Translations under genes and position numbers: made by a program | Shown: positions 2,161 to 41,950 of the stretch, in pieces | Layout of the letters: each line of letters opens with the position of its first letter | How positions within the stretch are numbered: position 1 is the first letter of the stretch | Assembly: GCA_036345935.2 (NCBI GenBank) | Contig: JADWOT020000002.1 | Coordinates: 2,700,692 to 2,764,691, forward strand | Length of the DNA: 64,000 nt | Direction of reading: 5' to 3' | Origin: Taenia hydatigena | Lineage: Eukaryota > Platyhelminthes > Cestoda > Cyclophyllidea > Taeniidae | The notes under the pieces: model-generated | What the model was told of the DNA's origin: nothing | Databases searched by the model: none | Seen by the model: only the letters and a program-made list of their open reading frames with translations

Positions 2161-5100
2161 TAATCCAGTTGCAACAACAACTTTTGGAAGCGTAAAATGC
2201 GAAGCATAATTTTGCTTCGCTGAATGCATCACTTTCCTTTCTTTGCTAAATAATATTAGGCAGTAGCATTTGTGTAGCAGCGTTTAGACAACGGACAGAA
2301 GAAGGATCGCTGCCGCATTATTTATGCCATCCATCCACCTGATGACACATTTAGCGAAAACATCAAAGTCCACAGCGCATCCATGTACGGTAGTTGTCAG
2401 TCCTTGCTCAAGCATCAGCCGATGGCCAAGTTAGAGCGTCGACTAATACAAGTCAAGTCATGTGATCGTAAACGCACTCAATTCGAGAAATTCGCAAGTT
2501 AGGTGACCGAATGCATTGCATGACATCATCACACTGCCCCACGTTGTGCTGTAAAATTCGATAGTGTTGTTGCCTTGCTTCGTGAAAATTTTTAGGACTT
2601 GCTGAAAATCAGTAAATTGCACAAAAGAGCACTATATTCAAAGGAATCTGCCCAGAAATCAGTACATGCCATCATGTGCTTCGTCTTTCTCAGGGTAATT
2701 TCCAACATTTTCCGCCCCATATAACGAGTCACATTTACGTTGCGGTGGAGTTTACGCACTGTTTATTGGTTTCTGCTCTCCGTTTCAGAGGCGATAACAT
2801 CGCGTTCATGGTAAATTAAGCATACGAAAGGCTCCAATCAAAATTGATTTGCAAAGGAATCTATTAAAACATGCACTGCGTATCCCTCAAGATGCAGCAA
2901 TAAATCATGCCGGCGATAGTTGCCGTTCTGCTATGCGTGTCGTAATGCATAGGTCTGCACTTACTTCGTTGCTGTCCTATTCCAAATGCAAGGCTATTAT
3001 TAGGATAACAGTTACAAAATGCATTATTCAGTGAAGACCAGCTAAATTCATGTTTGTAGGGTTCTTCAGTTGATGGATATCCGGCGGGACCATTTAGCGC
3101 AATAAACTATCCGTACGAAGCGTAAATAGTAGGTGATTACAATGCGATAATTTTCGCACAACTTTTGAAAAATTGTAGACATAAGTCCAGCTAAGCAATC
3201 ATTTTATCCAGGCGGCCAAAATTCCAAGCATAAATGCATTAAAAAGGAAACTCGCAGTTGTTTGCGTTCGCTAAGTCCTCTTAACCACGTTACTGTGGCT
3301 GCATTATTCACATTAATACTATGTACATTCTGAGAATCTATTGCGCTTATTGGGTTGGACGTGGATGCTGTTACAGCACCCTCTGGAATGATGTTTGGGC
3401 CTGCCTTTTTTCTCCGAACGAATGAATCTCGTCTTCTGCAGAGCACACCGTCGCGACAGATAGAGGGGAAGTGCTAGAGGTTCTGCTGCGAACAAGACAT
3501 CGGATTGCCCTTTACACTACCGTTAAGCTATGCGCCGGATGCAAATTGAATTGGCAAATCATCACAGGTCTTTCCCGTAGTTAAGTTTGTTTATCAAATT
3601 CTCATTGTGCTTCGCCATGCATAAGGAGACCATTGCAGATCGAGTATGTCGGCACGCATGAATGTAAGTGGAATCTTTGAAATCTGTCACTAGAAATGAC
3701 GATGAATATACCTGAGGTGCAGCGTGCCTTCTTTGCCCCTCCGAGAGTCTGAAAGGCATGCAAGCATTTTGCTGAGACTGGTCTGTGTTTTAGATGCATT
3801 CCGGTGACCAGTGTTTGGCAAGCAACTGTCGCCGAAACAGGCAGAGGTCTGCAAAGCTCGGCGCAGTGGGCTCTGCGTTCACGATGTCGTAGGCTGAGAA
3901 TTTCAATCATAGATATGGTTGGAAATCGTAAGTGAATGGATGAAAGGCAATGAATGAACATAAGCATTAAAGCATATACATTAGAAAAGCACTAAAATTG
4001 GGTTCGCACTTTACCTTCTTGCCTTTTTATGCCGAATGGCCTCTTCCATCATTGAGTGCATCCTTTCGCGATTGCAGTAGATGCTGTCGATTAGATGGGA
4101 GTAAAGCGACGTAAATTCCACTTGTGCGGCTTAAGATTAACTTGCCTTCTTTTAATCTACTTCTTTCACTCGCGATTCTTCCTTTAACCTTTTGTTTTTG
4201 TGGATCTTAAACAAGCGTTTGCGCTATTGCACTCACTGCCGCTATTTACCAAGGCGCCTTCATCCAATACTGGTGGGCAGTAGTTGTTGGTAGGCTAGCA
4301 TTTAGTGCTCATTGACATGCATTCATAATATTGACTTTGCAATGTGCCAATATGACTATGAGTAGTGCTCTCCGTCCAAGTCGCCGATCCGCATGCATCT
4401 TACTACAAGGTGCTTCTTGGAATGATAGCCCTTGGTAACCTCATTGAAAAACAGTGCTCCTTGGGGATGTAGCGTTATTAAGATTGCTTTGCAGATAGCA
4501 CGCAAACACCCTCAATGCGTTTACTCCCATCACTGTAATAGTGTGACGGCTCCTTCTATGACTACAACGTGCTCACATAAATAAGTATTTTTGACAACCA
4601 ATAGCTAATTATCGGCCTCTGAGGACGTGAGCAAATGTGCGAGTTTGTTTTTGCTCTTGTTGCAGTATCCAAGAACTCACCTGATGTGCTTGTTTACCTG
4701 CACACATTTTCTGTCTGTTTATTTGGGTATCGAGCTAGTGCATGCTTAAATTACGTTATGGCAAGGAAATGGCGGGTGAATTGTTGCAGTGCTGCTTAAT
4801 TGTGGCAGCTGATATTTGATTAGCAGACCTTGGAGACGTCAGCGCTTGAGGAACCCACACTAGTTGGCCACGTTCCTGTTAGTCAATCCACACTTCACAC
4901 CCTTCGCTGCGTACAGTCGAATAATTAGAACAACTAGAAGTTGTGCCAAGTAAATACTGCAAGTTCTATTATTCATAATCCATCTCAAGTTGGCGACTCC
5001 AGGGCAAAGTGGTGTAAGACTAGAGGAGAGGACATTTAGTTTGGAATTACATAAAACCTGCCTGTTTAATGAGATATTTACGCCTTTTTCACAGGTCGCC

Positions 5101-6322
5101 ATTGGAATTGAATGCAGCGCTGTGCCTTACTACTGAAAGTGCCATCAACATCTACTCAAAGACAAGTTTGCCTCTTTTGCAGCAGTGTATCAGTCCACCA
5201 CACTGGACTTACGTTTTATCCATCTTCTCAGTGGTCGCAGTAGTAATGAGTCCGAGTCGGTGATGAGGAGATAATATTCAGTAAATCGTGAACAATGCAC
5301 TTGTAGTGGAATTAAGCGCGATTGTTATTAGTGATCCGCGGTCCATCTTCCTCACTAAAGGGCTGCATTTATCTCCTCTAAAATAGTTTGTTACAATCCT
5401 TGACAAAGAAAAGGAAAAACAAAGATGATGCCTAAAGACTGTCTCAAATTGACCGCCTCCAACGCAGATGGTGTGGAAGGGCCAGCCTAAACTCCTGCTA
5501 ACATGTAATAGCATACAATTATTCAATCATAAAGAATGAACGCTGCAAATCAGGGGGAACCATGCATTTACAATCGGCTGAGGGATCAAAATGGTATGTC
5601 ATCTGGTCCGAAATTTGCGTTTAGTTGCAAGAACGAGCCTGTTTTTTCCATGTGAGAAGCTAAATGAATCATCCTAAAACTGCAATGGCTTTATTTTCCC
5701 TGACCATCAATTCAATTCAATCTGAGCCCAAATTATTGATGGCAATTGAGAGAAGAAAGTTTTAAAATGGAGCACATGACATTATTATAGAGAAAATTTG
5801 ATAAGTAAAAGTATTGATTTAAGTGCAATGCGTCGAAAGAATAGTGAAATTTGAAAAAATTCTCTCTCAGTGGCTGATTTGGGAATTTTAGCGACGCGTG
5901 CTCTTACTTTATTTGTATCACAGACCAACTGGCAATGACTCTGATCTCCAGCTAAACGCAATAATCCAAGCCGATTTTTGCTACGAATATGGATTTCGAA
6001 CATTGAAATTCAGTTAAGGCATGCTAGATGATGCCGCTTTCATCATGGGGGATCCAGCATTTCATTGGTCAATCCTGATGACAAATCGGTGCCAAGGACA
6101 CAATCCTGCCTATGAATGAGCCACTTCTTCATTTTGTAATTGTAACTACGGTTTCTGGCCACAAACCCTGGTATTGCCCAGGTCCTCGGCCTCGTTTATA
6201 CCCCAAATAAATGTCACGGAGAACTAGGCACAGTCAGACTGGGAATGGACATTCGTGTGTGCATGACAGTCTAAAAGACTGGCCTAAGGTTTGGAAGCAA
6301 TAATCGTGAGATTGAAGAAGGA
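2161..6322. other. No gene seen
   Basis: About 4.2 kb of unique-looking AT-rich sequence. Open frames on both strands stay below about 120 codons, lack family motifs and are not bounded by convincing splice sites. The longest, on the minus strand at 3602-3967, looks like chance. Confidence 0.5.
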
Positions 6323-7586
6323 CGCGGATGCATTAACATTAGGACAAATTAAGTGTGGAATATTTGGATAATGCTGATAGGCCAGCGCAGTTACCACAGG
6401 CGGTGCAGAAATTATAGTCTCAGTTCTGTGCTCTTCTCTTAGTCATGCTCGGTGGCGCTGCGTAACCTCTGCATTTGCTTAATATTTTCCATCATTACCC
6501 ATCTTGAAACAAAATGCAACGCTTGTCATAAACTGGTAAAATGCAGATCTTCAAAGGATCCAAGCCATTCTGACAGTCAACGTGTAACATCTGCAAGTGT
6601 ATGCGTTTGAGAGACACGGTCAACTAGACACACTTAGGCACCAGCATCAATAAATCGTTGGAGAGAGGTAGTAGAATTAAATATTACTTAAGAAGCTCCC
6701 CATGGTTATTTTATCAGCATGACGCTTACAGCGCCCAACAGCGTATTTGACAACATCCACGCTAAAACCTTGTTCAAATGTCAAGAAGAATGGCAAATAG
6801 GGGTAGGACTATATTGGTTGAAGTGACATTTCACAAACAGCACTCGGTTTAAGCTGGACATCGATGCGCGAAGTCCGCAAAAACGTAGGGATCAAAACTT
6901 GGCATGCACAGCATTTCAGCGGGCTGTGATTGCGGTGAATCATCAATCGAATTGTGGCACATTTCAGCAGAGTACAACTGGGCTGTCAATTCCTTCCAAG
7001 TAATTAAGATAGTAGTCGGACCGGTAAATTCTTGTAGAGTGCAGCCGTCTAGTTGGACAATGAAGTAACAATTTCGCTCCTGGTTGGTTGATTTGGCCGC
7101 TGTGAAATACCAGCTTTAGGACATTTCATGATTGGGTTGAGTGGACAAGTAGTGCGACTTGCTTGTTTTTCGTACGAAAATAACTGGCTTCATTGTACGA
7201 CGAAACGCAAACCCAAGATTATGCTGAAGAAAGTGTGATCCCTCAATCATTGGCGAACGCATGAGATTTTCTTAATTTTCAGCAAACAACTCTAATGCCT
7301 ATGTGCTATCATATGCTGGAAAAGAGGTCAAGCTGAGTCTCCCACAAGTTGTGGGAGCTTTGCGCCAGCATCTGTGTTTCCAATTTCTATGCTAGGGCTC
7401 GTGACACGCTGAGTGATACGTCGACGAGAATGTTAATGCTTAACCACAAGGTTTGAAACCACGGGGGTAGCAACTATCGCAGGGGAGTTTAACGCATCCC
7501 TTTGAAGTGAAGTGAAGTTCGCTACACGTTTTATTCGTAATCAACTGAATATTAGCGTGTCATCGACTCTGCTACGACCGCTTAAG

Positions 7587-10299
7587 CAACCACCTAAAAA
7601 TAAATTTAGACAGTCTAGGATGGCAGATACTCTAGTCGTATTCTAGACCATTATGCGCGCTCAGCATATGGGATTTATACCACGCAGCATCTACGATTCA
7701 AAGCTAGGCGATAGTACGTGAGTTCAATGCGGCTTTTCCGTCGCAAACTTGCTGCTGGTGCTGTTCTGTGCAACCATTTGCCAATCTAAGCGAGGCAGCG
7801 CATTCTATTAAGGACTAGATTTAGACTTAGTTTAAATGAAAAGTGTTATGGACTTACACCCACACATCCTGACGCATACACGAATTCACCTCAAGATGTG
7901 TGTCTGTAAGCGGATACTGATTGTGGATTTTCCTAATTCGTCCACGCGAATCTCACCATATCTGCATCCCACTAATATGCAATGCGCATGTCATGCATCG
8001 TGGGTCAATTCGAATGGACTTTCCATTGTTAACCATTGCCCCCTCCCAAGTAATCGTACTCGGTGTTAGGAGGTCTTCGCGGAATTTAAACAAGGCGTGA
8101 TGTGGGACATGGAGATCGCATTTTATTCATCGCAGTGAGAGTGGAGTAGATATCACGTAGCACACCACCAGACCACTTCGTGGTTCTAACCTGCATCTTC
8201 CTCATAGTGACTTCCAATTATGCGCCATTTCTGAGGAGCAAACTAGGGAAACAGTAGGTGATAGAATGTCGCAGTGCTAAGGGTGTTAATAAAATACGCA
8301 CGGATTCTGTGCGTGCATTTTCAATTTTCCGACTTCATGAGTCAGGCGTATAAGCTGAGCTAAATGACAGCATGAATGATGGGCAGTGTTGTCGTACAAG
8401 AGGTGAGGCTAAATCACATGCCATTGCTCCAGTCTAGTGTGAATAGCTTCTTAAACAACCACAGTCAATTAAGAGCCTTCAACTGTGGGTTTGATTCAAC
8501 CTAAATACAATCAAGTGGAAGGCAAACGCACTGTAACAGGCTTTCTCTTGTCAAGAACGCCTTAGCAGAGTCCACTTATTCAAAATCGAGTTGTATAAGT
8601 GTGGGCAAACAAAGGGTGGATAAAGTGCAATAACGGTCTGAATTTCTTCGATTGCTTGATTAATAGGGTGCATTTGGCATTTTGTCAGGATCGTTGGAAT
8701 TCATCCTTGCACCCAAATGCAAAATGACAGGCAGAGTAAAGAGTCAGTCTCTTAGTGGACAATGAGTAGAAGGGCTGCCCTCATCATCAGCGATTACACT
8801 TTACTTTTTATTCTTGTATAGCGCCGCACGCTCGAGGCCAAGTAAAACTCCTGCACACGCTTTGCATCGGGTGGGGCCAATTACGCTATGGTGAAATTGT
8901 TACCGCCAGCTCCTCATTTTTTTTTGTATTTCCTACCAAAGCGTGTGGCAAATACAGACCAATTCGTGAACGAAAACTCATTTGAGTTGAGGAATGTTTA
9001 CCCTCGGGATTTGAAAGCATTGAGATAGGAGTGCGTGACAGCCGAGTTTAAAAAACTCTCTCGTTAAAGAAGATGGGCTAGACATACTGCTAGCAGCTAC
9101 ACTTATGGCCGCTACAAGTGTTCGCAGGCGCACTTTACTGAATAATACTGCGACAGCACGCGCTTGAAGTCATCAGCTTTACGGTGGTTGAAGCGATGCG
9201 TACTAGTAGTGCACTGGTATCCCATTGACGTGCACTGCTCACATTCCCACTACTTTTACATTGATTTTGGTTGATTTAACATCCCAAAATATATGGAGCA
9301 TTGCCAGGTCGAGAGTGCAGGATAGAGAGTGTCCAAAGTGCGGCTTGAAATTATTCGTTCTCTTCTCAAGAACGAGCTTCGAGCTCGGACACCAGAAGAA
9401 AGCTTGGCCAGTCTTGGTAAGAAAGGCACTAATGCCATCGCGTCCCTTACATAGCGATGATGACTTTCCAAACAACGGGAAGGCACTTCAAACGTGATGT
9501 CAATTTTATCAATTGGCATGCTCACAACAACAGACCGGAGATCCGATTTTGCGAATTTTTTGCCACATTCAGTCTTAAATTGTTTCGCGGTGCACCTGAC
9601 TGCTTACGATTGTAGAGGTTTGAAGTGTAATTGCAATCACGAGATCAATGCAACGTTATAAGCCAAAGAAGACGCCAAATACAGGTAGAATTGCAATCCT
9701 CAAGGCAACTGTTCACAAAGGGTACTCTATTAAAAATATGCTTGGCATAGAGAATTCGTAACAAGGCAATGATTAAAACATGACATAAACAGCATGTTAG
9801 GGATTGTGTTTATGGCGAGCCACGAATCCACTTAAAGCCCGCTGTGATGAAGCACACCCAGGCCGCCAAGACTTTACAAGTACATCTAAGAATTATTGTT
9901 TTGAGATGCTAGTCAGACAAGTGGAAGTTTGCAGAATGCAGCCGTCTTCTTAGGCAACGAATTCAAATCATTCGCTACTTGGCTTATTGGTTTAGGCGCC
10001 AAGATTTAAGTGCTCAAGGGCAATACACCGAAAGCATCCTTTTGCACACAATTTAAAGTAGAAAATGCTGGACTTCGGGAGTGTTAATGCGCGTAGTGGA
10101 TCTTGAAAATAGATGTGACATTCAGCTATGTGTATTATTGTACATTAAAGACGAAAGAGTGCGAAGGATAGTCTACAGAAAAAATTATTTGTACTCACTT
10201 ACGGAAGATTATGACAAAAGCATGTGAAAATAAGAAGAGATGGGTTAGCAGTTTGGTGCCCGAACGAATACATATCACATGCGATTTATGCGGTCACGT
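7587..10299. other. Core of left arm outside the array: no gene supported
   Basis: Unique-looking sequence conserved in the mirror arm. It holds a 77-codon open frame at 7836-8069 (plus) and, around 9225-9525, three overlapping frames of 78-90 codons on both strands. These survive in both arms only because the arms are almost identical, so their conservation says nothing about function. The minus frame at 9239-9475 ends in a W-D-V-K...I-x-V-K-V stretch faintly reminiscent of an FN3 strand; I do not call it. Confidence 0.5.
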
Positions 10300-11275
10300 T
10301 TATCACCTCGAAAAGTTGACGGCACACAAGTAGTGGCAATGTAGACACGTCAACCACCGGTAGACCGGCGCAAAGTTGATGATTCAAGGGTGGTGGCGAA
10401 TGCTGCAGGGATATCATATGCCATCGATGCGGCAAAGATAATCACTCCTCATTTATTGGTGGAACTAGAGTAGTGAAATCGCTGACATTCACAGCCACGA
10501 TCGACAGAGCGGTGCAAAGTTAAATGTGCTAGTCGATGGATATTACACGCATTATATGCGGAAATTTTTACTGGTTGTGGTAAGGGTGAAACTTACACCC
10601 GCCATAGACAGACCAGTGCCAGTTCGCTAATGCAAGTAAGTGAGCTAATGCTACGGGCTATCACATGCCAGCTAAGCGATAAACAACACCCATCCACAAT
10701 TATTGGTAGCGAAAAGTAGTGACATTACTAGCACACAAAACCAACACCCAGATGCTTGTAATTAAGAAATATCTGCACAGCTGTCACAGCTGTCACATAT
10801 ATGCGCAAAATTAACTTCATTACACTGATTTTTCTTAAAAATGCATTGGCATTTCTGGCAATTGCACCTGCAACCGACATACCACCGCAAAGTCAGAGAT
10901 GCAAATGTTTGAGCTATTGTAAATGACTATCACATGCCATCTGTGAGGCATTGCTTATCACTCCACCCATTTTCGGTGGCACAAGTGCAGTGGCATTGTT
11001 AGCACATACAGTTATCATAGAAATAACGGTTCGTTGTCTAAGATGCAATTAATTGTAGAAGATCTGCACAGTTGTCACATGCTGTCTATGCATCGAAGAT
11101 TATTCCTCCTCACTGATTGGTTGTACTCAAGTAATAATGTTTCTGACACACGCATCGTCAACAGACCGACGCGAGATTAATGATGCCAGTAATTGTGCTA
11201 GTGGTATAGGCCTATCATATGCTATCTATGCGATAAGCAATACCTCTTTACAGTTATTAGTTGCAAAATGTTGTC
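10300..11275. repeat. ~140-bp tandem repeat array inside the left arm
   Basis: This is the same repeat family as at 1-1080. Unit landmarks (CACTCC/CCTC..ATTGGTGG-type, GCACACAAGTAGTGGCA, ATCAcATGCcATCTATGCG) recur about every 138-145 bases, near 10300, 10440, 10580, 10685, 10815, 10955, 11098 and 11236. Adjacent units are strongly diverged from each other, yet the whole array is nearly identical to its mirror at 14963-15940. The array is therefore much older than the event that made the two arms alike. Confidence 0.75.
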
Positions 11276-11657
11276 TGAGTTAGTTTTCCTTCGCAATAAG
11301 CACTAAATATCAGCATGACAATTACGCTTTAAAGGCCTTCGTCCAAATTTTTTCTTGTATTGGCTTGCCTCTGAAATCATTCATCGCGAACAGTAATTAC
11401 GCATTCAGCTTAATACAATAAGTATATTTGTTAGTAGAACTAAACTTGTGCCTTGAAGTCATATCCGTTTTTCGTAAAATGCAGAATACCTTTAAAAATG
11501 TGAAGACTTCAAGCATAAGGCATTTGCATTAGCTCGCAACACAGCGCGAACTCATTTTTGAATGGGCGGAAGTGGCAACCCTAAGTAAATGAAGTAAGCG
11601 CAGAAAGGCTTGTATTTGTCAATAGCTTTCTAGTTGAAGAAGCTACGTCGGAAATAA

Positions 11658-11704
11658 TTAAGCACGAATGAGTGTCACTGTTCCATCGCACGCACCATAA
11701 AGGC
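11658..11704 (-). pseudogene. Mirror of the putative tail exon of the FN3 gene
   Basis: On the minus strand this matches 14534-14580: a pyrimidine-rich acceptor ending in CACAG, then a phase-1 open stretch of about 15 residues ending in TAA. It differs from the right-arm copy by a few substitutions, for example GGA for GAA and GCT for ACT. It would be the last exon of the truncated left-arm FN3 copy. Calling it an exon is inference from splice signals only. It carries no membrane segment. Confidence 0.25.
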
Positions 11705-11957
11705 CTGTGCTGGAAAAAGAGAGGTCTGGTAATTTTGTATAATAGACCGTGGTCGTACGTGTGCCTAAACAGTTGTTAATTTGCACTTACGCACAAGTAA
11801 GCTCAAGCAAGCCTCATTGCCACGCCAGACGGAGCCAGACCGAATGGACCACGAGGCGGAACAGTTGGTCGCAAAAGCACTTTTCCTCTCCCTATGCAAG
11901 CAGACAAGTCATTCTTCGGTTTGGCAAAGCACATTACAATCGCACTTGGTAACTTAC

Positions 11958-12245
11958 CGGGGGACGGTGTTTTAATAAATCCATCGTATATGTCAGTTGT
12001 ATCCGTGAGAGCCAAAACTCAGCATCGTGTGTTGGCTCCTAACCCCTCAAGAGTTATGCTCCCTTTTAAAAATTCTACTTCTTTACTCTTGACCAAGACG
12101 GGTTTAGTGGTAGAAACTGCAATTAGCTTAATCTGGTCCTCATAGTGCTCACCCAACGCTTTCACATTCCAAGTCAACGTAATGGAATTGGGCTTTGGGA
12201 TTTTGTTTCCGCTGATTTAGAAAGCATTCGTTTCTCGTTTAAACA
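11958..12245 (-). pseudogene. FN3-domain exon of an EG95/TSOL-type antigen, decayed left-arm copy
   Basis: Minus-strand counterpart of exon 3 at 13989-14282. From 11958 (phase-1 donor GTAAGTT on the minus strand) to about 12190 it is nearly base-identical to that exon. It includes the S-I-T-L-T-W-N-V strand, the T-K-P-V-L-V segment, the I-T-L-E-G-L segment and the same TGA directly after N-T-R-C. Beyond about 12190 similarity falls abruptly to a weak match. In that older part there is an in-frame TAA and no acceptor as good as the one at 13988. With two nonsense codons and a poor 5' end this is a pseudogene. It points away from the plus-strand gene starting at 12658. Confidence 0.7.
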
Positions 12246-12610
12246 CGAGATCTCCTTAGTCGTTATAATGGCGCCGAAAAGGCGGTTGCACTTCTCAATC
12301 AGTATTGCAGGGATGTTCGACTGCAAAGTGGGTTTTTCTAACTAGTTTCTATCTCGAAGCCACCCAATGCCAAAATTTCGCTCTCTGATGACACAAAATA
12401 AAACTTGAGATCTATGGAATAATTAGACATTGCACTCTATTTCAGCCCCCTCGTCTGCGCACCTTAATAACAACGCATTTGGCAGCAGACCATCGATTTT
12501 ACGAGAAAGAAGCAACACATCACATTGCGATCAGGAGCTCTATGCATTGAGGAGTCGTCCTGTAGTTCAAGAACACACATCTGATAGGCTGGTGCATCAG
12601 TCCCCATTCT
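12246..12610. other. Spacer between head-to-head FN3 copies
   Basis: No exon is seen. The first ~100 bases retain weak reverse-complement similarity to the intron before exon 3 (around 13910-13985; a shared TCCCTGC...CCATTATAA pattern), so the old inverted duplication extended past the near-identical core. Confidence 0.4.
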
Positions 12611-12618
12611 TATAAATA
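12611..12618 (+). promoter_or_regulatory. TATA box of the FN3 antigen gene
   Basis: TATAAATA lies 47 bases upstream of the ATG at 12658. The related signal-peptide exon on the minus strand has the same octamer 46 bases upstream of its ATG (25895-25888), and the decayed copy has a mutated version at the same distance (26742-26735). The repeated spacing supports a real core promoter with a very short 5' leader. Confidence 0.65.
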
Positions 12619-12657
12619 CCCCGTGATTTGTACCTATGACCCAATTATTTGTTGGTG

Positions 12658-12727
12658 ATGTCGTTTGGCTTGCATCTTATTTTATTGGCGATTTCACACC
12701 TAGCGAAGAGCCAAATAGGACTGAGTG
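12658..12727 (+). CDS. Exon 1: signal peptide of FN3 antigen
   Basis: 70 bases encode 23 residues starting M-S-F-G-L-H-L-I-L-L, a short hydrophobic signal peptide with a likely cleavage near H-L-A-K. The exon ends one base into a codon before GTGAGT (phase 1). The minus-strand exon at 25780-25849 is also exactly 70 bases, phase 1, and similar in layout (hydrophobic run, then L-A-K). I prefer this start to the ATG at 13186: the latter lies in the intron's acceptor region, and the paralogue at 63.7 kb lacks that ATG while keeping the splice site. Confidence 0.65.
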
Positions 12728-13234
12728 GTGAGTTGCATATCTCACATTGATTAATTGCCTCCGTTATTCTAAGCAAAGCGCTGTGTACAGTTACGTTCAA
12801 CTTGTCTGCACTCGCTTTATTTTAGCCCCTCAATTTCCACTCACCGTAAATGGATAACTGCATGTGCACCAGTTGACAGTGATATTTGCTTGCGAATGGC
12901 AATCGTGACGCACAAATCTGATACATCAAATGATAATTGGCTAAAACTACACTCCTACTTCTGCTGCATCTCATTCAAATTCTGAGTGCATTCTCCGACA
13001 CGCGTTTCATTATAATTCAAGCACATACGACATAGGCTAATATTTACCAACACCTAACTCTATAGGTCCAGCAGGTCAATTGTTGCTCTATGAAAGTGAG
13101 TAACGAATAGTTAGATCGTTTAACACCCCCAATGCTATTATGGAAGTAGTAAGAGGTCAAGATTCCTGTTTCTAAGTGATCTACAATGTCCGCAGCATTT
13201 CTGTTAAGCATGGCATATTTACCTTGTTTTGCAG

Positions 13235-13537
13235 AGGAGGCAATGGAAATAAGGGAACCGCTTCCAGATTACTTCCAATGGACCTGGCCGGGGCCACACA
13301 CCATCACGTTAGTTTGGGATGTGAGACAGTTGGGTGAGGACAACGCGAAACAGATTAGACTGACTGCATTTTCACCGCACCCTCCCGTAATCGAGACCGA
13401 AAAGGAAGATTTTCCGTGGGGAATAATCACCCTTGGCGCGATGGAACCCGACACGAGATACAATGTGTTGGTACACGCACTAGCAAATTAGAGCTTTGCT
13501 GTTCTATTCTATGGTATCATTAAAACCATGCCCCTTG
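13235..13537 (+). pseudogene. Exon 2: FN3 domain 1, one premature stop
   Basis: 303 bases, phase 1-1, acceptor CTTGTTTTGCAG, donor GTAAGT. The domain reads L-P-D-Y-F-Q-W, then T-I-T-L-V-W-D-V, I-R-L-T-A-F-S, I-I-T-L-G-A-M-E-P-D-T-R-Y and V-L-V-H-A. These are the B, C, E and F strand signatures of the EG95 family, including the core Trp and the Tyr of T-R-Y. A TAG at 13489-13491 cuts off the G strand, but translation past it stays open to the donor. The paralogue at 63419-63721 has GAG at the corresponding codon, so the stop is a single-base change on this lineage. Confidence 0.75.
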
Positions 13538-13988
13538 GTAAGTTGCGATTGTGATTATGACGCGCATCACCGCACCAAAGGATAGCATATCTGCTTACAT
13601 GGGGAAGAAGGGAGTATGATAATGCACTCGCGAGCCATTTGCTCCAATTCAATAGTTTTGCATTATTAAAATAAGTGGAATTTAGATTACCTGATCATAT
13701 GGCGAGACACATCGCCGAGAAAATGACTGCAGAATACACGACGATACTCACGCATTAACAAGGAACGTCTTCAGCTACCCAATGTAGCATCGTAATGCAC
13801 CCTTGAGTGGAAAGTTAGCGTTCACAGTGAGCAAGTGCTTTGTTGCGTTTTAAAGGCAAACACAGTTATTCATGCTGCCTTCTGACATTACTGTAAATAT
13901 CTTAGCATTAAGTGTTCCTCATTTCCCTGCCTAGTTGATTCGGGGTGCCTGCATGATTACCATTATAAAGCAAATACTTTTTTCGCAG
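13538..13988 (+). other. Intron 2 of the FN3 gene
   Basis: GTAAGT donor at 13538 and a TTTTTTTCGCAG acceptor ending at 13988. Its first ~200 bases are clearly similar to the intron after the FN3 exon at 63.4 kb. No second signal exon is visible inside, which favours exons 2 and 3 belonging to one gene rather than two tandem genes. Confidence 0.55.
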
Positions 13989-14282
13989 AAGAGAGAAAGG
14001 AAGTGAAGAAACCGCTTCCAGCACACTTTCACTGGCAAATCTCGAAGCCCTACTCCATTACGTTGACTTGGAATGTGAAAGCGTTGGGTGAGCACTATGA
14101 GGACCAAATTAAGCTAATTGCAGTTTCTACCACTAAACCCGTCTTGGTCAAGAGTAAAGAAGTAGAATTTTTAAAAGGGAGCATAACTCTTGAGGGGTTA
14201 GGAGCCAACACACGATGCTGAGTTTTGGCTCTCACGGATACAACTGACATATACGATGGATTTGTTAAAACACCGTCCCCCG
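13989..14282 (+). pseudogene. Exon 3: FN3 domain 2, one premature stop
   Basis: 294 bases, phase 1-1. It reads E-E-R-K-E-V-K-K-P-L-P-A-H-F-H-W, then S-I-T-L-T-W-N-V-K-A-L-G, I-K-L-I-A-V, T-K-P-V-L-V, S-I-T-L-E-G-L and N-T-R-C. A TGA at 14219-14221 follows where other copies have the Y-x-V strand. Past the stop the frame stays open (Y-D-G-F-V-K-T-P-S-P) to a GTAAGT donor. The left-arm copy has the same TGA, so the stop predates, or was spread by, the event that homogenised the arms. Confidence 0.7.
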
Positions 14283-14533
14283 GTAAGTTACCAAGTGCGA
14301 TTGTAATGTGCTTTGCCAAACCGAAGAGTGGCGTCTGCTTGCATAGAGAGAGGAAGAGTGATGTTGCGACCAACTGTTCCGCCTCGTGGTCCATTCGGTC
14401 TGGCTCCGTCTGGCGTGGCAATGAGGCTTGCTTGAGCTTACTTGTGCGTAAGTGCAAATTAACAACTGTTTAGACACACGTACCACCACGGTCTATTATG
14501 CAAAATTACCAGACCTCTCCTTTTCCAACACAG

Positions 14534-14580
14534 GCCTTTATGGTGCGTGCGATGAAACAGTGACACTCATTCGTACTTAA
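14534..14580 (+). pseudogene. Possible exon 4 (tail) of the FN3 gene
   Basis: A strong acceptor (CTCTCCTTTTCCAACACAG) precedes a phase-1 compatible open stretch of 15 residues ending in TAA at 14578-14580. Known family members usually end in a hydrophobic C-terminal segment, which is absent here. Either the real last exon is missing or this gene has an unusual tail. Confidence 0.25.
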
Positions 14581-14962
14581 TTATTTCCGACGCAACTTCT
14601 TCAACTAGAAAGCTATTGACAAATACAAGCCTTTCAGCGCTTACTCCATTTACTTAGGGTTGCCACTTTCGCCCATTCAAAAATGAGTTCGCGCTGTGTT
14701 GCGAGCTAATGCAAATGCCTTATGCTGAAGTCCTCATATTTTTAAAGGTATTCTGCATTCCACGAAAAACGGAAATGACTTCAAGACACAAGTTTAGTTC
14801 TACTAACAAATGGACGCATTGTATTTGAGCTGAATGCGTAATTACTGTTCGCGATGAATAATTTCAGAGGCAAGCCAATACAAGAAAAAATTTGGACGAA
14901 GGCCTTTAAGGCGTAATTGTCATGCTGATATTTAGTGCTTATTGGGAAGGAAAACTAACTCA

Positions 14963-15940
14963 GACAACATTTTGCAACTAATAACTGTAAAAAGGTATTG
15001 CTTATCGCATAGATAGCATGTGATAGGCCTATACCACTAGCACAATTACTGGCATCATTAATCTCGCGTCGGTCTGCTGATGATGCGTGTGTCAGAAACA
15101 TTATTACTTGAGTACAACCAATCAGTGAGGAGGAATAATCTTCGATGCATAGACAGCATGTGACAACTGTGCAGATCTTCTACAATTAATTGCATCTTAG
15201 ACAACGAACCGTTATTTCTATGATAACTGTATGTGCTAACAATGCCACTGCACTTGTGCCACCGAAAATGGGTGGAGTGATAAGCAATGCCTCACAGATG
15301 GCATGTGATAGTCATTTACAATAGCTCAAACATTTGCATCTCTGACTTTGCGGTGGTATGTCGGTTGCAGGTGCAATTGCCAGAAATGCCAATGCATTTT
15401 TAAGAAAAATCAGTGTAATGAAGTTAATTTTGCGCATATATGTGACAGCTGTGACAGCTGTGCAGATATTTCTTAATTACAAGCATCTGGGTGTTGGTTT
15501 TGTGTGCTAGTAATGTCACTACTTTTCGCTACCAATAATTGTGGATGGGTGTTGTTTATCGCTTAGCTGGCATGTGATAGCCCGTAGCATTAGCTCACTT
15601 ACTTGCATTAGCGAACTGGCACTGGTCTGTCTATGGCGGGTGTAAGTTTCACCCTTACCACAACCAGTAAAAATTTCCGCATATAATGCGTGTAATATCC
15701 ATCGACTAGCACATTTAACTTTGCACCGCTCTGTCGATCGTGGCTGTGAATGTCAGCGATTTCACTACTCTAGTTCCACCAATAAATGAGGAGTGATTAT
15801 CTTTGCCGCATCGATGGCATATGATATCCCTGCAGCATTCGCCACCACCCTTGAATCATCAACTTTGCGCCGGTCTACCGGTGGTTGACGTGTCTACATT
15901 GCCACTACTTGTGTGCCGTCAACTTTTCGAGGTGATAAAC
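14963..15940. repeat. ~140-bp tandem repeat array inside the right arm
   Basis: Mirror of 10300-11275, about eight diverged units. Landmarks are the reverse complements of those in the array at 1-1080, for example TGCCACTACTTGTGTGCCG near 15900. Confidence 0.75.
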
Positions 15941-18652
15941 GTGACCGCATAAATCGCATGTGATATGTATTCGTTCGGGCACCAAACTGCTAACCCATCT
16001 CTTCTTATTTTCACATGCTTTTGTCATAATCTTCCGTAAGTGAGTACAAATAATTTTTTCTGTAGACTATCCTTCGCACTCTTTCGTCTTTAATGTACAA
16101 TAATACACATAGCTGAATGTCACATCTATTTTCAAGATCCACTACGCGCATTAACACTCCCGAAGTCCAGCATTTTCTACTTTAAATTGTGTGCAAAAGG
16201 ATGCTTTCGGTGTATTGCCCTTGAGCACTTAAATCTTGGCGCCTAAACCAATAAGCCAAGTAGCGAATGATTTGAATTCGTTGCCTAAGAAGACGGCTGC
16301 ATTCTGCAAACTTCCACTTGTCTGACTAGCATCTCAAAACAATAATTCTTAGATGTACTTGTAAAGTCTTGGCGGCCTGGGTGTGCTTCATCACAGCGGG
16401 CTTTAAGTGGATTCGTGGCTCGCCATAAACACAATCCCTAACATGCTGTTTATGTCATGTTTTAATCATTGCCTTGTTACGAATTCTCTATGCCAAGCAT
16501 ATTTTTAATAGAGTACCCTTTGTGAACAGTTGCCTTGAGGATTGCAATTCTACCTGTATTTGGCGTCTTCTTTGGCTTATAACGTTGCATTGATCTCGTG
16601 ATTGCAATTACACTTCAAACCTCTACAATCGTAAGCAGTCAGGTGCACCGCGAAACAATTTAAGACTGAATGTGGCAAAAAATTCGCAAAATCGGATCTC
16701 CGGTCTGTTGTTGTGAGCATGCCAATTGATAAAATTGACATCACGTTTGAAGTGCCTTCCCGTTGTTTGGAAAGTCATCATCGCTATGTAAGGGACGCGA
16801 TGGCATTAGTGCCTTTCTTACCAAGACTGGCCAAGCTTTCTTCTGGTGTCCGAGCTCGAAGCTCGTTCTTGAGAAGAGAACGAATAATTTCAAGCCGCAC
16901 TTTGGACACTCTCTATCCTGCACTCTCGACCTGGCAATGCTCCATATATTTTGGGATGTTAAATCAACCAAAATCAATGTAAAAGTAGTGGGAATGTGAG
17001 CAGTGCACGTCAATGGGATACCAGTGCACTACTAGTACGCATCGCTTCAACCACCGTAAAGCTGATGACTTCAAGCGCGTGCTGTCGCAGTATTATTCAG
17101 TAAAGTGCGCCTGCGAACACTTGTAGCGGCCATAAGTGTAGCTGCTAGCAGTATGTCTAGCCCATCTTCTTTAACGAGAGAGTTTTTTAAACTCGGCTGT
17201 CACGCACTCCTATCTCAATGCTTTCAAATCCCGAGGGTAAACATTCCTCAACTCAAATGAGTTTTCGTTCACGAATTGGTCTGTATTTGCCACACGCTTT
17301 GGTAGGAAATACAAAAAAAAATGAGGAGCTGGCGGTAACAATTTCACCATAGCGTAATTGGCCCCACCCGATGCAAAGCGTGTGCAGGAGTTTTACTTGG
17401 CCTCGAGCGTGCGGCGCTATACAAGAATAAAAAGTAAAGTGTAATCGCTGATGATGAGGGCAGCCCTTCTACTCATTGTCCACTAAGAGACTGACTCTTT
17501 ACTCTGCCTGTCATTTTGCATTTGGGTGCAAGGATGAATTCCAACGATCCTGACAAAATGCCAAATGCACCCTATTAATCAAACAATCGAAGAAATTCAG
17601 ACCGTTATTGCACTTTATCCACCCTTTGTTTGCCCACACTTATACAACTCGATTTTGAATAAGTGGACTCTGCTAAGGCGTTCTTGACAAGAGAAAGCCT
17701 GTTACAGTGCGTTTGCCTTCCACTTGATTGTATTTAGGTTGAATCAAACCCACAGTTGAAGGCTCTTAATTGACTGTGGTTGTTTAAGAAGCTATTCACA
17801 CTAGACTGGAGCAATGGCATGTGATTTAGCCTCACCTCTTGTACGACAACACTGCCCATCATTCATGCTGTCATTTAGCTCAGCTTATACGCCTGACTCA
17901 TGAAGTCGGAAAATTGAAAATGCACGCACAGAATCCGTGCGTATTTTATTAACACCCTTAGCACTGCGACATTCTATCACCTACTGTTTCCCTAGTTTGC
18001 TCCTCAGAAATGGCGCATAATTGGAAGTCACTATGAGGAAGATGCAGGTTAGAACCACGAAGTGGTCTGGTGGTGTGCTACGTGATATCTACTCCACTCT
18101 CACTGCGATGAATAAAATGCGATCTCCATGTCCCACATCACGCCTTGTTTAAATTCCGCGAAGACCTCCTAACACCGAGTACGATTACTTGGGAGGGGGC
18201 AATGGTTAACAATGGAAAGTCCATTCGAATTGACCCACGATGCATGACATGCGCATTGCATATTAGTGGGATGCAGATATGGTGAGATTCGCGTGGACGA
18301 ATTAGGAAAATCCACAATCAGTATCCGCTTACAGACACACATCTTGAGGTGAATTCGTGTATGCGTCAGGATGTGTGGGTGTAAGTCCATAACACTTTTC
18401 ATTTAAACTAAGTCTAAATCTAGTCCTTAATAGAATGCGCTGCCTCGCTTAGATTGGCAAATGGTTGCACAGAACAGCACCAGCAGCAAGTTTGCGACGG
18501 AAAAGCCGCATTGAACTCACGTACTATCGCCTAGCTTTGAATCGTAGATGCTGCGTGGTATAAATCCCATATGCTGAGCGCGCATAATGGTCTAGAATAC
18601 GACTAGAGTATCTGCCATCCTAGACTGTCTAAATTTATTTTTAGGTGGTTGC
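15941..18652. other. Core of right arm outside the array: no gene supported
   Basis: Mirror of 7587-10299. Open frames at 16713-17013 (both strands) and 18169-18402 (minus) duplicate those of the left arm. There are no splice signals or motifs strong enough to call an exon. Confidence 0.5.
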
Positions 18653-19618
18653 CGTCATCGCAACAACATTCTAGATTACTCTGAGCCCCGGCACACTTAC
18701 ATTGACCCTCCTGATCAACCGACATTATGCAGCGAGGTGCGAGGGGCTGTGAAGCGCCCTGTGTCTCTGCCACGTCTCATTAGCTACCCCACTACCACGC
18801 AAGCACTCCGATTTTGCATACGCTCCTTCGTCCTCGTCAATCAAGTAAAGCGATTTTGTGGTATCTTTGTCTGCTAATCAATCTGACTAAAGAGAATAAT
18901 CTACTTCAGATTCTTCATGAAAACTGTTTGACTAATTTTAAAATTGCACTCCTCTTTTAATGCCTACCACGGCGCTTCACTAGCTGCTTAAAGTTCTCCT
19001 CTTATCCGAAGGCGTGCAGTGAGATGTGGATTGAATCGGCGCTGATTTATTGTGAAGCGATCACATGACAATCGTTTTGTCTTGTTATTAAAATGAACAA
19101 TGTGTGCAGTTCGTTTATAAATCACCAAACAAATGTTGTCCAATGAATTTTGTTTGTTTTGATTCAGCATAGTGTGGATTTTTAACATTTGGTCAGCTGC
19201 CTTGAAGACGAATATATTGTCAGCCCACGGGCACAAACTTGTCTTCATTACAACATTGGAAGAGCATGTCCTTATTTACGTGCAACATTTGGAAAACACT
19301 GAGCTTCGTTTAAAAAGAAAGGATGAACTCAATTGTAAATACAGGCTCTGCCATGCATTTTGATCCTTGGAACTCTAATTGCTGAGATGCCGTTTCGACT
19401 TAAAAACTTTGCACTTTATTGTCACCTAATTAATCCGCACATAAAAGTCGCCCATTTAGCGGGACACTTACATTTCTTCCGCAAGTCTTTAGCAGGATTG
19501 AAGATAGCTCTACTTAATACCAATAAAATTTGCCAAAAATACTGCTAAGATTCGATTTATTTCTTTTTTGCCAACAGCGTTTCATTGCCCAACTTTGAGT
19601 GTGCACCTCGTGCATTGC
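18653..19618. repeat. 966-base segment present only in the right arm
   Basis: In the left arm GGTGGTTGC is followed directly by TTAAGCGGTCG (read as reverse complement of 7585-7592). In the right arm these words are separated by 966 bases, with TTGC at both junctions (18649-18652 and 19615-19618). The distal part, from about 19030, matches 48150-48725, and that match continues without a break across 19618 into the outer arm. The segment therefore belongs to an older dispersed repeat. The simplest reading is loss in, or replacement of, the left arm rather than a transposon insertion in the right. Confidence 0.7.
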
Positions 19619-19985
19619 TTAAGCGGTCGTAGTAGAGTTGATGACACAATACTACTCAGTCGATCATTAATAAAACATGAGTAGCGAACTTCACTTCACT
19701 TCAAATGGATGCGTTAAACTCCCCTGCGGTAGTTGCTACTCCCAATGGTTTTAACCCTCGTGGTTAAGCGTTATCAACTTGGAATTGCATTCTCGTCAAT
19801 GTGTCACTCAGCGTGTCACGAGTCCTAGCATAGAAATTGGAAACACAGATGCTGGCACAAAGCTCCCACAACTTGTGAGAGACTCAGCTTGACCTCTTTT
19901 CTAGCATATGATAGCACACAGGCATTAGGATCGTTTGCCGAAAATTACGAAGATCTCATGCGTTCGCAATTGATTGAGGGATCAT
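19030..19985 (+). repeat. Dispersed repeat B, copy 1 (partner at 48150-49090)
   Basis: Matches 48150-49090 in the same orientation through many blocks: CAGCTGCCTTgAAGACGAA near 19195 (48310), TTGGAAGAGCATG near 19257 (48364), GTGGTAGAGTTGATG-like near 19630 (48736), GCGTGTCACGAG near 19813 (48914), AAGCTCCCACA near 19859 (48960) and TTGATTGAGGGATC near 19970 (49072). Similarity then ends. The level is roughly 80 percent. No coding frame is shared. Confidence 0.7.
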
Positions 19986-20898
19986 GCTTTATGCAGCATA
20001 ATCTTGGGTTTGCGTTTCGCCATACAATGAAGTTATTTATTTTCGTACGAAAAACAAGCAAGTCGCACTACCCGTCTGCACAATCCAATCATGGAATGTC
20101 TTAAAGCTGGTATTTCACGGCGGCTGCATCAACCAACCAAGAGCAGAATTGTTGCTTCATTGTCCGACTAGACGGTTGTACTGTGCAAGATTCTACCGGT
20201 CCGACTACTACCTTAATTACTTGGAAGGAATTGACAGCCCAGTTGTACTCTGCTGAAGTGTGCCACAATTCGATTGATGATTCACCGCAATCACAGCCCG
20301 CTGGGATGCTGTGTATGCCAAGTTTTGATCCCTACGATTTGCGGACTACGCACATCGAGGTTTAGCTTGAACCAAGTGCTGTTTGTGAGATGTCACTTCA
20401 ACCAATATAGTCCTACCCCTATTTGACGTTCTTCTTAACGTTTAAACAAGGTTTTAGCGTGGATGTTGTCAAGCACGCTGTTGGGCGCTGTAAGCGCCAT
20501 GCTGATAAAATAACCATGGGGAGCTTCTTAAGTAATATTTAATTTTACTACCTCTCTCCAATGATTTATTGATGCTGGTGCCTAAGTGTGCCTAGTTGAT
20601 CGTGTCTCTAAAGCGCATGCAAATGCAGATATTACAAGTTGACTGTCAGAATGGCTTGAATCCTTTTAAGATCTGCATTTTACCCGTTTATGGCATAAGT
20701 GTTGCATTTTGTTTCAAGATGAGTGATGATGGAAAATATTGGGCAAATGCAGAGGTTACGCAGCGCCACCGATCATAACCAAGAGAAGAGTACAGAACTC
20801 AGACTATAATTTCTGCGCCGCTTGTGGCAACTACTCTGGCCTATCAGCATTATCCAAATAATCCACACCTAATTTGTCCTAATTTTAATGCATCCGCG

Positions 20899-21095
20899 AT
20901 GAAACGATCTGGTCTGGCTAAAATATCTGCACAGAACGATCTCTATGGCAAAAATCGAGAGAGTCTTTAAATGATGAACTCAAAAAGACAGTTGCTTACT
21001 GCTAAAAGGCAACTATTCGTATCATTATAACATTTCCGCATTTGGCGCCGATGGTGAAGAAGTGCACTAAGTGTAGCTCATGGAAGGCCTTTTAC
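20899..21095. other. No gene seen
   Basis: Short stretch between the inverted repeat and the donor of the membrane-protein exon. It would be intron if the neighbouring gene continues leftward. Confidence 0.4.
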
Positions 21096-21402
21096 CAGGT
21101 AGAGGTGAAGGCATCTTCATGAATGTCTCTTCACTAACTTTCCATTCGTGCTGCATCTGAAACATCCAACTGTTAAATAATGAGGACGCAACTCGTGAGA
21201 TGAGACAAAATGACAGCCAGCCAGAAATCCAGGACCGCAATAGGCCATCCCCTAACGACGCAGTGGGCGGGATGCTGTGCTTCGCAACAACGAAATAGAC
21301 GACTCCCAAAATTAGACCAGCAAGGTAGTATCGACCAAACGATTGTGCAACAAAAGACTCAAATATCGCAGAATAGGACTCCATACGTCCCGCTCGACAA
21401 AT
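21096..21402 (-). CDS. Candidate exon of a multi-pass membrane protein (unidentified)
   Basis: A 307-base open exon on the minus strand lies between an acceptor (ATTGCCTTAG) and a donor (GTAAAA, phase 1). It encodes a membrane segment (Y-Y-L-A-G-L-I-L-G-V-V-Y-F-V-V-A), a short loop with H-S-I-P-P, a second segment around S-W-I-S-G-W-L-S-F-C-L-I, then a polar part ending P-S-P-L-P. The frame joins poorly to the upstream exon. The preceding exon's phase would instead open a different frame (beginning F-V-E-R-D-V-W-S-P-I-L) that hits a stop after about 30 codons. Either a splice site is mis-chosen or there is a one-base indel. The layout loosely recalls the membrane part of the nucleoporin Ndc1, but I cannot establish this. 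Confidence 0.4.
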
Positions 21403-22068
21403 CTAAGGCAATCTGTTTTGTAACTTTGGTGGGTCACTCGCAACAATGTGACCAAATGAAAGAATGATTTTATCTGTCAGGACCTGAATTACAGGGATAT
21501 CATATCAAAGGAATCGAAAAGCAACATCTGAAACAGCAGCTGCAGGACTACTGCTAAATGCACTCAAACCTACAGTCTGTCTAACAAGAACATCCATCAC
21601 TACATTTCACCCATTGCAATCTTTAAAAAATGGTGCTTCCCGCTCAAAAAGCCAGAAGCACATTAACTCTGAATCAACCTTGCTGTCCTGGATGGGAAGG
21701 TTTTGTAGCAGCACATGATTCAGTACAAACCCAGTTGCCATAACACACTAACAATAACTAATGCATGCTGAGCTGCGATCAAATAATTATGAGAAGTGGT
21801 TTCTTGGCATGGCAACTTTAATAAGAAAGATTGTCAGAGTAGAAAATGAATATGCACCCACATGGACAGCACGATAACTCCGTAATCCATTTGAACAGCC
21901 TCAGGTGCGAATTTGGAAAGCAAACAAGCGGTTTTGGCATCCAAACTGTGGCTGTGCACGCCTATTCTGCCAAAAGAATCATAAAATCACCATAATAAAT
22001 GTTGATTGTGGGGATCCAAATTGGGCAGAGGGTGCCTAACCTCCTAGATGCGATACTTCAGCCCTCAC

Positions 22069-22138
22069 GGAGAGTCCACAAGTCCAGACAATATCCACAG
22101 ACTGACCGCCAGATATACGACATAGGCACCAAGTATAG
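22069..22138 (-). CDS. Candidate transmembrane exon of the same minus-strand gene
   Basis: 70 bases between TTTGCATTTTCAG and GTGAGG, phase 1 in and phase 2 out. It encodes one hydrophobic helix, I-L-G-A-Y-V-V-Y-L-A-V-S-L-W-I-L-S-G-L-V. It joins in frame to the exon at 22338-22397 (phase 1 to phase 1). The clean helix and the matching phases are the main support. The function is unknown. Confidence 0.4.
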
Positions 22139-22337
22139 CTGAAAATGCAAATCTCAAGGTAGTCCAAAGTCATCAAGTAAATTGGTTGTGATTCATTTTG
22201 ATTTGGCAGTTCTGCACACACTTCAGAACATTACGTAAAGGAGACAGGTTAAAGAAATTCGCCTTTATAATGAGCGCTACATTAAAAAGTATTTGTGTGA
22301 TAAAGGAGAATAGAGAGAAAACAGAGGACTAACTCAC

Positions 22338-22397
22338 CTATGGCTTCGAACAATGAACAGACATTTAATCTCGCGTATTTATCCATGAAATCAGAAG
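22338..22397 (-). CDS. Candidate small exon of the minus-strand membrane-protein gene
   Basis: 60 bases, phase 1-1, donor GTGAGT, acceptor ending TAG with a weak pyrimidine tract. It encodes S-D-F-M-D-K-Y-A-R-L-N-V-C-S-L-F-E-A-I and runs in frame into the transmembrane exon at 22069-22138. Upstream exons were not found. Confidence 0.3.
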
Positions 22398-26830: not shown

Positions 26831-28645
26831 TAGTAAGCACTAAGAATGGGTCGCGTAGTGAAATAATAAGTTAGTTGTCGTTCTAATTCAAATTTCGCTG
26901 TCGCTTAAGAATGTCTCGAAATCTTTGTACATTTGATGGAATCCATTTCTTGTTTAAGAGGTCGTTGTGGATGAAGGAGTAACGCAACTGCAGTTGCCGC
27001 TCCTTCACTGCGTCTAACCAAGCTTTTCCTTACTTTGCAGACGTTCGATGTGCTCTTATATGCTATAGGTGGTCACATTGTGATACGTCGCTACACCCTC
27101 CTTTTGGCGCACAACAGTAAAGACAGTGCACCATCATCTCTTCCCTTTCTACCTGCAAGTACAAATGCAAACGCAAAGGAAGCCTACCTAACTTGGTGAA
27201 ATTTAAGCAGTTGGCACAAAGCACACAAAACCATGGATTAGAAGATCGTGCAGAAATAATGGAATGCGATGTCATCCATCTTGTGCCGACTAAATTAGCG
27301 CCGTTTTCTTCCATTCGTTTTTCGGATACTTGGCTGCAGTGTCCCATTGTGCCACACGGAACGAGAATTCAAAAACCCCTGTGTAGTGGCTGATTAAAGG
27401 TTGGAAAAAATTGATGCACCACCCTTGGCAAATCGTTCTGCTCAATTTAAGGGCTGTGAATAAGAGGTACGTTGGATCAAACGAGATCCCCTACTGTACA
27501 ATTGCGAGCAAACAAATTGGCCAGTGATGATGCAGTTACTGTTTTCATTCATCTGAAAATTGATCCAGCGAAACTCACGCCTTAGGAGAATCGCAAGATA
27601 ATAATCAATGCCAAATGCAAAACAGATGCTTTTCTCACATTCGTTCTGTGGCTTAGTCAAAAATCTCCAAACGGCTCGTGGAACTATTTTTAAATGTTTA
27701 ATATTAATAATTTACCCGTTAACCCCCCCGTAGATCATTTTAATGATTTTGCCGCAACAAAAATTAGCAATCGCCAAACAAGCTGGTAGAGAAAATAACA
27801 CCCACTTTTAAAACGCTTGCATAAAAGAAATGAAGAAGCGATCTCTCAATAAGATGCGGAGGCATATGATTCGCTGCAATGTCAGCGTGAGTATTTCCAT
27901 GCTTGAACGATCTGGTTCAAATAAACAGTGGTATCACATGCTAGAAAAGGGGGTTATGCTAAGCCACCCACACTGGTTCGTGGCAGATGATTTGTGAAGG
28001 CGTTCTTGCAAGCATTTATTCATGTCTACTTTAATTGGAAGGCTTATAGCAAACCTACGGATGTTCAGTCGGGAATGCATGCGAATTGCGGGGTGCTTGT
28101 GCACGAAGTTGAGCAATAATGAGTCGATTTGAGTCAAGATATGTATATAATTGATAGTGACGCTATAAGAATAGGTACGAGATTCTACTACGGAAACCTG
28201 ATCCTTCTTTTTAAAGGCAGTACTAAGGAGCCCCAACATTTTTAGCCAACTAGAGGCAGCGCAGATAGCAACTTTGTCTAGCTGTGTGTAAAACTGAAAT
28301 CCTCAACAACAAATAAGTGAGTAGCATATAACTTGCACGTCTACCACCACTGAGTAAGTAGTACTTTGTCCTTGCGTGCAGTGACCTCCTTGAACGTCTG
28401 CGCATTAGTTGTTGTAGTGGGCATCTTTCCCAGTACAAACATCACTGGATTAGATCGTCTCATGGCTTTCGAGCTGGTTTTAAACGAAATGTGAACACGA
28501 TTCTGTGGAGGAGTGGGAAAGAGCATAGGGCTGGAAAATCTAGCATCTCATAAGGTCAGACTGTCAGGGCGGGACAAGTTCCATTTGATTTCGCGATCCC
28601 TAATGAGTTTAGAGCGTTAATTTGGAGGAAGCATGCAAACATGTA
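26831..28645. other. No gene supported
   Basis: Open frames up to about 100 codons on the minus strand (27063-27347, 27934-28239) lack motifs and credible splice contexts. Confidence 0.5.
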
Positions 28646-28766
28646 TTTATTTATAACTTGATCTGAAAATGTTCTTTTCGTCACCGCATTGTTGGTGTAA
28701 TAGCCTGTTGCTCTAGCAAAATTATGCTTCCCCATTGCAAGACCGTAGCATCGCCTTGAAAACTTG
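28646..28766 (-). repeat. Dispersed repeat fragment (partner at 62505-62620)
   Basis: On the minus strand, TCAAGGCGATG, then GACAATG/AACAATGCgg and AAAAGAACgTTTTCAGATCAA followed by TTATAA match 62505-62620 on the plus strand. It lies in the longest open frame of the window (28556-28990, minus, 144 codons). Since the partner does not keep that frame, I treat the frame as chance within a repeat. Confidence 0.5.
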
Positions 28767-29759: not shown

Positions 29760-29960
29760 GGTGGTAAACTGACATTATATGCGTATCGCATATGCGTGAC
29801 GGTGAGACAAAATGCGGATATCGTGAAGTGAAACATCACCATAAGAAAAAAAGTAATTGTTTGCGCAAAGAATTATTCCATTTGCAAGACAATTTGATCT
29901 CGGTCAAAAAGTTGCGAGGAAGTGGATAAAATGAATGAATGCTCGTATGGATGGGGAAGG
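29760..29960 (+). repeat. Purine-rich dispersed repeat, partial copy
   Basis: Resembles 46600-46800 (GTGAaATGCG, then GAAGcGAAACaTCAtcATA, AAGGAA/AAGAAA runs, then a GGATGGGGAAGG-type block) and, inverted, the 60.7-61.5 kb region. The copy is diverged and boundaries are approximate. Confidence 0.4.
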
Positions 29961-41902: not shown

Positions 41903-41950
41903 GTAAGCTTCTTCTGAAGCACCGTGACAAATTATGAGAGTCATAATTAT

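Follow-up and report, generated by a model that had tools for sequence, protein, structure and literature searches.

The window analyzed here, a stretch of 64,000 nucleotides of the Taenia hydatigena genome (C2:2700692-2764691), carries a large inverted repeat whose two arms flank a spacer with FN3-like exons. We compared it with its own assembly, 306 Mb in 1,354 contigs. The core of the repeat, 7586-12203 against 14037-18652, is 98.98% identical over 4,619 columns, with 43 substitutions and 4 insertion or deletion (indel) columns between the arms, and the outer arms, 6323-7589 against 19615-20898, are inverted copies with 88.9% identity over 1,285 columns (BLAST, E-value 0 in both cases). A single difference separates the arms across the 3,571 bp of 7586-11156, whereas 11157-12203 carries 42 of the core substitutions and all 4 indel columns (1 versus 42 substitutions, Fisher p 1.5e-26). 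The inverted repeat is confirmed as genuine and has three tiers: an old outer flank, 3,571 bp that are near-identical, and an inner shoulder of about 1 kb at 96%. The original prediction, made from the letters of this stretch, had recognized inverted arms with a near-identical core, outer flanks at about 85-90%, and an identity profile that is not uniform along the arm, all of which we recover; its two tiers with a homogeneous core have to be replaced by three, since the core divides at 11156/11157. The parts of the locus, with their positions in the window, are the following.

4835-6322, minus strand: further outward part of the left arm, with no partner beyond 20898 on the right side of the window but with one in the relative at 8.85 Mb
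6323-7585, plus strand: outer part of the left arm, an old sequence that differs from its right counterpart by about 10% (88.9% against 19615-20898, inverted)
7586-7589, no strand: the left core's outer junction, where both parents have the same 4 bases (GCAA); about 962 bp fewer than in the right arm
7586-11156, plus strand: left half of the recently homogenized tract, one difference in 3,571 bp
11157-12203, plus strand: left shoulder, an inverted copy of the right-arm shoulder; unrelated sequence adjoins the spacer at this place in 18 of 18 close relatives
12013-12198, minus strand: left-arm copy of FN3-like exon b, which lacks the 5' part and has an in-frame stop
12204-14036, plus strand: spacer, at least 58 genome matches; FN3-like exon a lies in it, as does the 5' part of exon b
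13231-13488, plus strand: FN3-like exon a, open until an in-frame stop directly after 13488
13985-14227, plus strand: FN3-like exon b, in-frame stop at 14219, 3' part inside the core
14037-15081, minus strand: right shoulder, source of the left shoulder, 95.7-96.1% against it
15082-18652, minus strand: right half of the recently homogenized tract, from the pairwise alignment of the arms
18653-19614, plus strand: right-arm segment absent from the left arm; sequence runs on through it in the places L003-L008
19615-20898, minus strand: right outer arm, 88.9% against the left outer arm

The inner end of the near-identical tract (11156/11157) falls inside the homology of the arms, whereas the ends of the whole copied core are non-collinear. 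Outward, the roughly 962 bp at 18653-19614 have no counterpart in the left arm. Inward of 12203/14037, BLAST with words of 7 listed no homology between the arms, and Smith-Waterman comparisons inward of the core, under a scoring that tolerates gaps freely, gave scores below or inside the range of 100 shuffles (508 against a mean of 542 and a maximum of 633; 185 against a mean of 153 and a maximum of 202). Of the older homology claimed for both sides of the core, that on the outer side (88.9%) is thus real and that on the inner side is absent. The weak continuation described into the FN3 exon and the intron before it is instead paralogy of the two FN3-like exons within one unit (12113-12185 versus 13301-13373, 74%). 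Tandem Repeats Finder reported no tandem repeats in the window; it missed two neighboring direct copies of about 550 bp each, 79% alike, at 40859-41968.

The same sequences recur widely in the genome. Searches were made with the core, the outer arm, and the spacer, scoring 40 candidates for each (for the spacer, 40 of 151); all counts are lower bounds. A 2-kb piece of the core has at least 53 matches, 39 of them on C2; the outer arm has at least 42, with 36 on C2; and the spacer has at least 58. Several core matches form inverted pairs. We fetched seven neighborhoods of 20-30 kb, the 10 kb upstream of the window, six 5-kb places (L003-L008), and five smaller pieces. Many dispersed copies with inverted ends might suggest a large transposable element with the arms as its terminal inverted repeats, but the copies are concentrated on C2 (39 of 53 core and 36 of 42 outer-arm matches, among the matches listed), the ends of the unit vary between loci, and no Pfam match above the cut-off came from the nine arm frames searched, so that we find this explanation scarcely credible.

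A tree of 18 sequences, built from the block 17225-18249 of the right arm, separates two classes of arm at a support of 100/100. All four palindromes with both arms in this block have one arm in each class, with arm-versus-arm identities of 80.3% (6.37 Mb), 82.2% (6.82 Mb), 83.7% (5.09 Mb), and 82.4% (8.85 Mb); the palindrome at 6.37 Mb is apparently in reverse orientation. Since the arms of these four palindromes are 80-84% identical and fall one into each old class, they show that the palindrome is old. In the window, both arms belong to a single class for this block and are 99.9% identical to each other, compared with at most 92.6% to other loci. An approximately unbiased (AU) test rejects grouping the left arm of the window with the four other left arms (p 0.0001); the test is rough, as a sequence at 8.11 Mb that belongs in that group was left out of it, and its result is matched by the 99.9% identity of the arms.

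The relatives also bear on the direction of copying. In those on C6 and at 7.67 Mb, the left arm ends near the equivalent of 11188-11270, and beyond it lie about 955 bp, followed by the spacer at 12202-12203. Except for an edge of about 42 bp, this left-hand segment is unrelated to the left shoulder of the window. The 7.67-Mb locus has two copies of the left-arm end and of parts of the left-hand segment, and in L007, at the same place, a left arm sits beyond that segment, in the position taken by the left core in the window. Homology of the left-hand segment to the right shoulder was considered and rejected: the score of the C6 copy (825) exceeds those of all 100 shuffles (maximum 770), but BLAST finds the 42-bp edge only, and the 7.67-Mb copy scores inside the shuffle range (699, maximum 756).

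The left-hand segment, sometimes only as its spacer end or in pieces, adjoins the spacer in all 18 other spacer copies that have at least 80% identity and reach 12204, 15 of them found by comparing segment matches with spacer matches and 3 confirmed by fetching. This count draws on 34 of the 58 spacer matches, the other 24 all beginning more than 60 bases from 12204. One of the 34 is the window itself and two more begin too far in; in the remaining 31, the segment is present in 20 by match comparison and in 3 by fetching, and 8, all at 71-72%, had no scored segment match and were not fetched. Of the two that begin too far in, the one at C2:7131937 has a partial left-hand segment 8 bases off. 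At this edge of the spacer, the window has inverted right-arm sequence in place of the left-hand segment. On the right side, shoulder and spacer are contiguous in 7 of 9 fetched neighborhoods, the other two (6.37 and 8.14 Mb) having no spacer match. Because relatives keep the left-hand segment and the right shoulder runs contiguously into the spacer, these comparisons show that the shoulder was copied from the right arm into the left and that the copy overran the homology between the arms.

Read by eye, the inner junction has a microhomology of 1 base against the C6 relative or 2 against the 7.67-Mb relative, and the outer junction has 4 shared bases. The sequence that intervenes at the outer junction is retained in 9 of 9 other loci, which were paired by hand from core and outer-arm matches, others being left out; it measures 979-1066 bp in eight of them and 388 in one. 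The corresponding distance between the core and outer-arm queries is 980 in the right arm of the window and 14 in the left.

Shoulder differences private to the right arm number 16 and those private to the left 14, with 12 mixed; the sole difference outward of the shoulder is private to the right. Both arms have changed independently since the shoulder was copied, so the 3.57-kb tract was homogenized later. The counts show a core of two ages (about 4% and 0.03% divergence), which takes at least two events. The single conversion tract of about 4.6 kb in the original prediction does not fit such a core, nor a copy that overran the homology of the arms, as the 18 spacer copies indicate. A left core falsely copied in assembly, by chimeric reads or polishing, could also produce 3.57 kb with a single difference, and the published T. 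hydatigena assembly, if it is the same one, rests on about 33x PacBio with Canu and Pilon (PMC8384839). Such an artifact would not be expected to leave 42 shoulder substitutions divided between the arms, a non-palindromic 1.8-kb spacer, and outer flanks about 10% apart in a window without any N, and we judge it highly unlikely.

Two other palindrome lineages carry homogenized patches of their own. The arms at 6.37 Mb are 95-100% identical over about 0.6 kb beside the spacer, versus 70-97% per 100 bp further out, and in the 6.82/8.85-Mb lineage about 300-350 bp at 88-100% are flanked on both sides by 58-84%. The second patch is less certain and may in part reflect conservation or older exchange. 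The broader proposal of an old inverted duplication with later copying between its arms gains support from these patches and from the relatives with arms 80-84% identical, evidence that lay outside the letters on which the prediction was made.

The history that we consider likely is that of an old palindrome whose left arm was overwritten from the right beyond the limit of homology, with a 3.57-kb conversion following later. The window holds one copy of an old palindromic segmental duplication that is dispersed mainly over one 24.8-Mb contig. About 4.6 kb of the right arm, beginning inside exon b, would have been copied inverted into the left arm, where it replaced left-arm sequence and the unrelated left-hand segment (about 955 bp where whole). 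This might have happened by copying from the opposite arm during break repair, finished by end joining and not by homologous return; the few shared junction bases (4 outer, 1-2 inner) fit copying ended by end joining. The arms would then have drifted by about 4% before ordinary arm-to-arm gene conversion, in either direction, equalized 3.57 kb, with its outward end at the exact point where the arm match stops. We infer the repair mechanism from the junctions, and likewise that the 4.6-kb copy was one event and that the missing 962 bp were lost during it.

Several observations weigh against this history. The palindromes at 6.82, 5.09, and 8.85 Mb are 96.6-99% alike per arm class and were counted as one lineage. 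The outer flanks of the window are no closer to each other (89.1%) than to copies elsewhere (91.9% for the right flank against the 7.67-Mb copy and 91.6% for the left against C702); one tree joins them weakly (54/73), another does not, and by themselves they would be insufficient proof of an old pair. The right arm of the window is a patchwork by class: at 328 clean class-difference sites, 184 are left-class, 25 right-class, and 4 neither outward of about 16.67 kb, and 53, 58, and 4, respectively, inward of it. One clean switch between the classes was rejected, the best (16655/16669) fitting 242 of 320 sites; exchange may have been bidirectional over time or may have come from other loci. Across loci, too, identity between the two classes is about 91% at the 6.82/8.85 patch. 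Finally, plain gene conversion seldom leaves both ends non-collinear.

Some of these points would suit a recent inverted duplication, in which a copy of the right core was inserted beside an unrelated family member at a locus without an earlier palindrome: the left core is bounded at either end by a non-homologous junction that shares few bases, and the outer flanks resemble each other no more closely than they do copies elsewhere. Yet the family has repeated instances of inverted pairs whose arms have diverged, the left flank at 4835-4992 also matches the end of the left flank of the 8.85-Mb palindrome, the left arm in L007 lies beyond the left-hand segment at the very place of the window's left core, and the core is of two ages. 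On balance, we think a recent duplication improbable and retain the overwriting of an old left arm.

Arm-to-arm copying in an old palindrome is of a kind already known; its overrun of homology is the added point. In human Y palindrome P6, arm-to-arm gene conversion has been reported, with multikilobase tracts according to the title (PMC3723533). Like the human Y palindromes as presented there, the window has a large inverted repeat with near-identical arms through probable gene conversion; unlike them, its arms are mostly diverged, only tracts are homogenized, one copy overran homology, and the arms belong to a dispersed unit of a probable antigen cluster rather than to a Y chromosome. The eg95 antigens form an FN3-domain multigene family with pseudogenes, for which the portion of the account available to us proposes gene conversion from intron gaps (PMC2671473). 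The present locus resembles that family in these respects, but palindromes are not discussed in that portion, whereas here the copying would be between inverted arms and mostly of noncoding sequence. Searches of the open-licence literature turned up no study that treats palindromes together with gene conversion in tapeworms.

Template switching, or repair copying that ends in microhomology, can leave a templated copy in inverted orientation whose junctions share few bases. The present case differs from generic template switching in that template and target lie within an existing palindrome, and the mechanism is read from the junctions only.

The window has one bacterial-type frame of at least 150 codons. 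Exons a and b are both interrupted by in-frame stops, and exon b is open across the matched span in 4 of the 7 other loci where it was found. Among 9 exon translations, Pfam fn3 matches 4 weakly (best E 0.0026) and another profile, Pur_ac_phosph_N, matches 4 as well, at a better E of 0.00014; a further set of three translations gave no fn3 match. A PDB profile search placed a viral nsp3 chain on top (0.028), with NCAM1 and fibronectin chains at 0.36-0.49; a single-sequence fold of exon a has six strands at low confidence (predicted local distance difference test [pLDDT] 58.6), and a protein search with exon a gave no match. We take the exons to be like those of EG95 and 45W. The units probably belong to a cluster of FN3-like exons of the taeniid oncosphere-antigen type. 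The antigen-cluster setting of the original prediction is plausible, given the many copies and FN3-like exons, with a tentative family name that comes from weak profile matches. The copied tract has a single recognized gene piece, an FN3-like exon that is truncated and carries an in-frame stop, and because this piece is broken, no role in antigen variation is supported.

The published T. hydatigena genome comprises 308.54 Mb in 294 scaffolds with expanded oncosphere antigens (PMC8384839). TSOL45-1A of Taenia solium has two FnIII domains, and a splice variant without exon II has one (PMC3383989); the two-exon layout resembles exons a and b, by layout alone and not by sequence, and the exons of the window, unlike that gene, carry in-frame stops.

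A more doubtful extension would make the palindromic units local copying devices of a helminth antigen cluster: arm-to-arm tracts are present in several independent units, and copying that overruns the homology of the arms could move pieces of antigen exons to new inverted places. If true, this would give an antigen gene family a route to spread and reshuffle by means of copying units. The locus offers a worked case of arm overwriting, with relatives in the same genome as controls, in an apparent tapeworm antigen cluster: near-identical arms here need not signal recent duplication, and trees of such genes can mislead owing to copying.

Beyond the paired arms, window 7587-4835 matches 16341-19079 of the 8.85-Mb relative inverted (80.8%), and window 20896-22627 pairs instead with 28261-29972 of that relative, 10.7 kb further out than expected. 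That interval, at the right arm's outer end, was either lost from the window or gained by the 8.85-Mb relative. A third, older outer-arm copy (75%) lies in the window at 48145-49109. On C2 near 2.64, 4.76, 4.91, 5.16, 5.73, 5.87, and 6.03 Mb, each outer-arm match of 69-72% has a companion match of 76-78%, equally oriented and about 7-9 kb distant, which would fit a further type of duplicated unit. A second partial spacer copy with exon a, inverted and 87.5% identical to 12968-13683, occupies 63272-63990 and runs on to C2:2765414; its exon a has an in-frame stop. Ankyrin-repeat frames lie at 36748-37158 (plus strand) and 51192-53044 (minus strand), and near them 36745-37038 matches 53237-52946 in inverted orientation at 71%.

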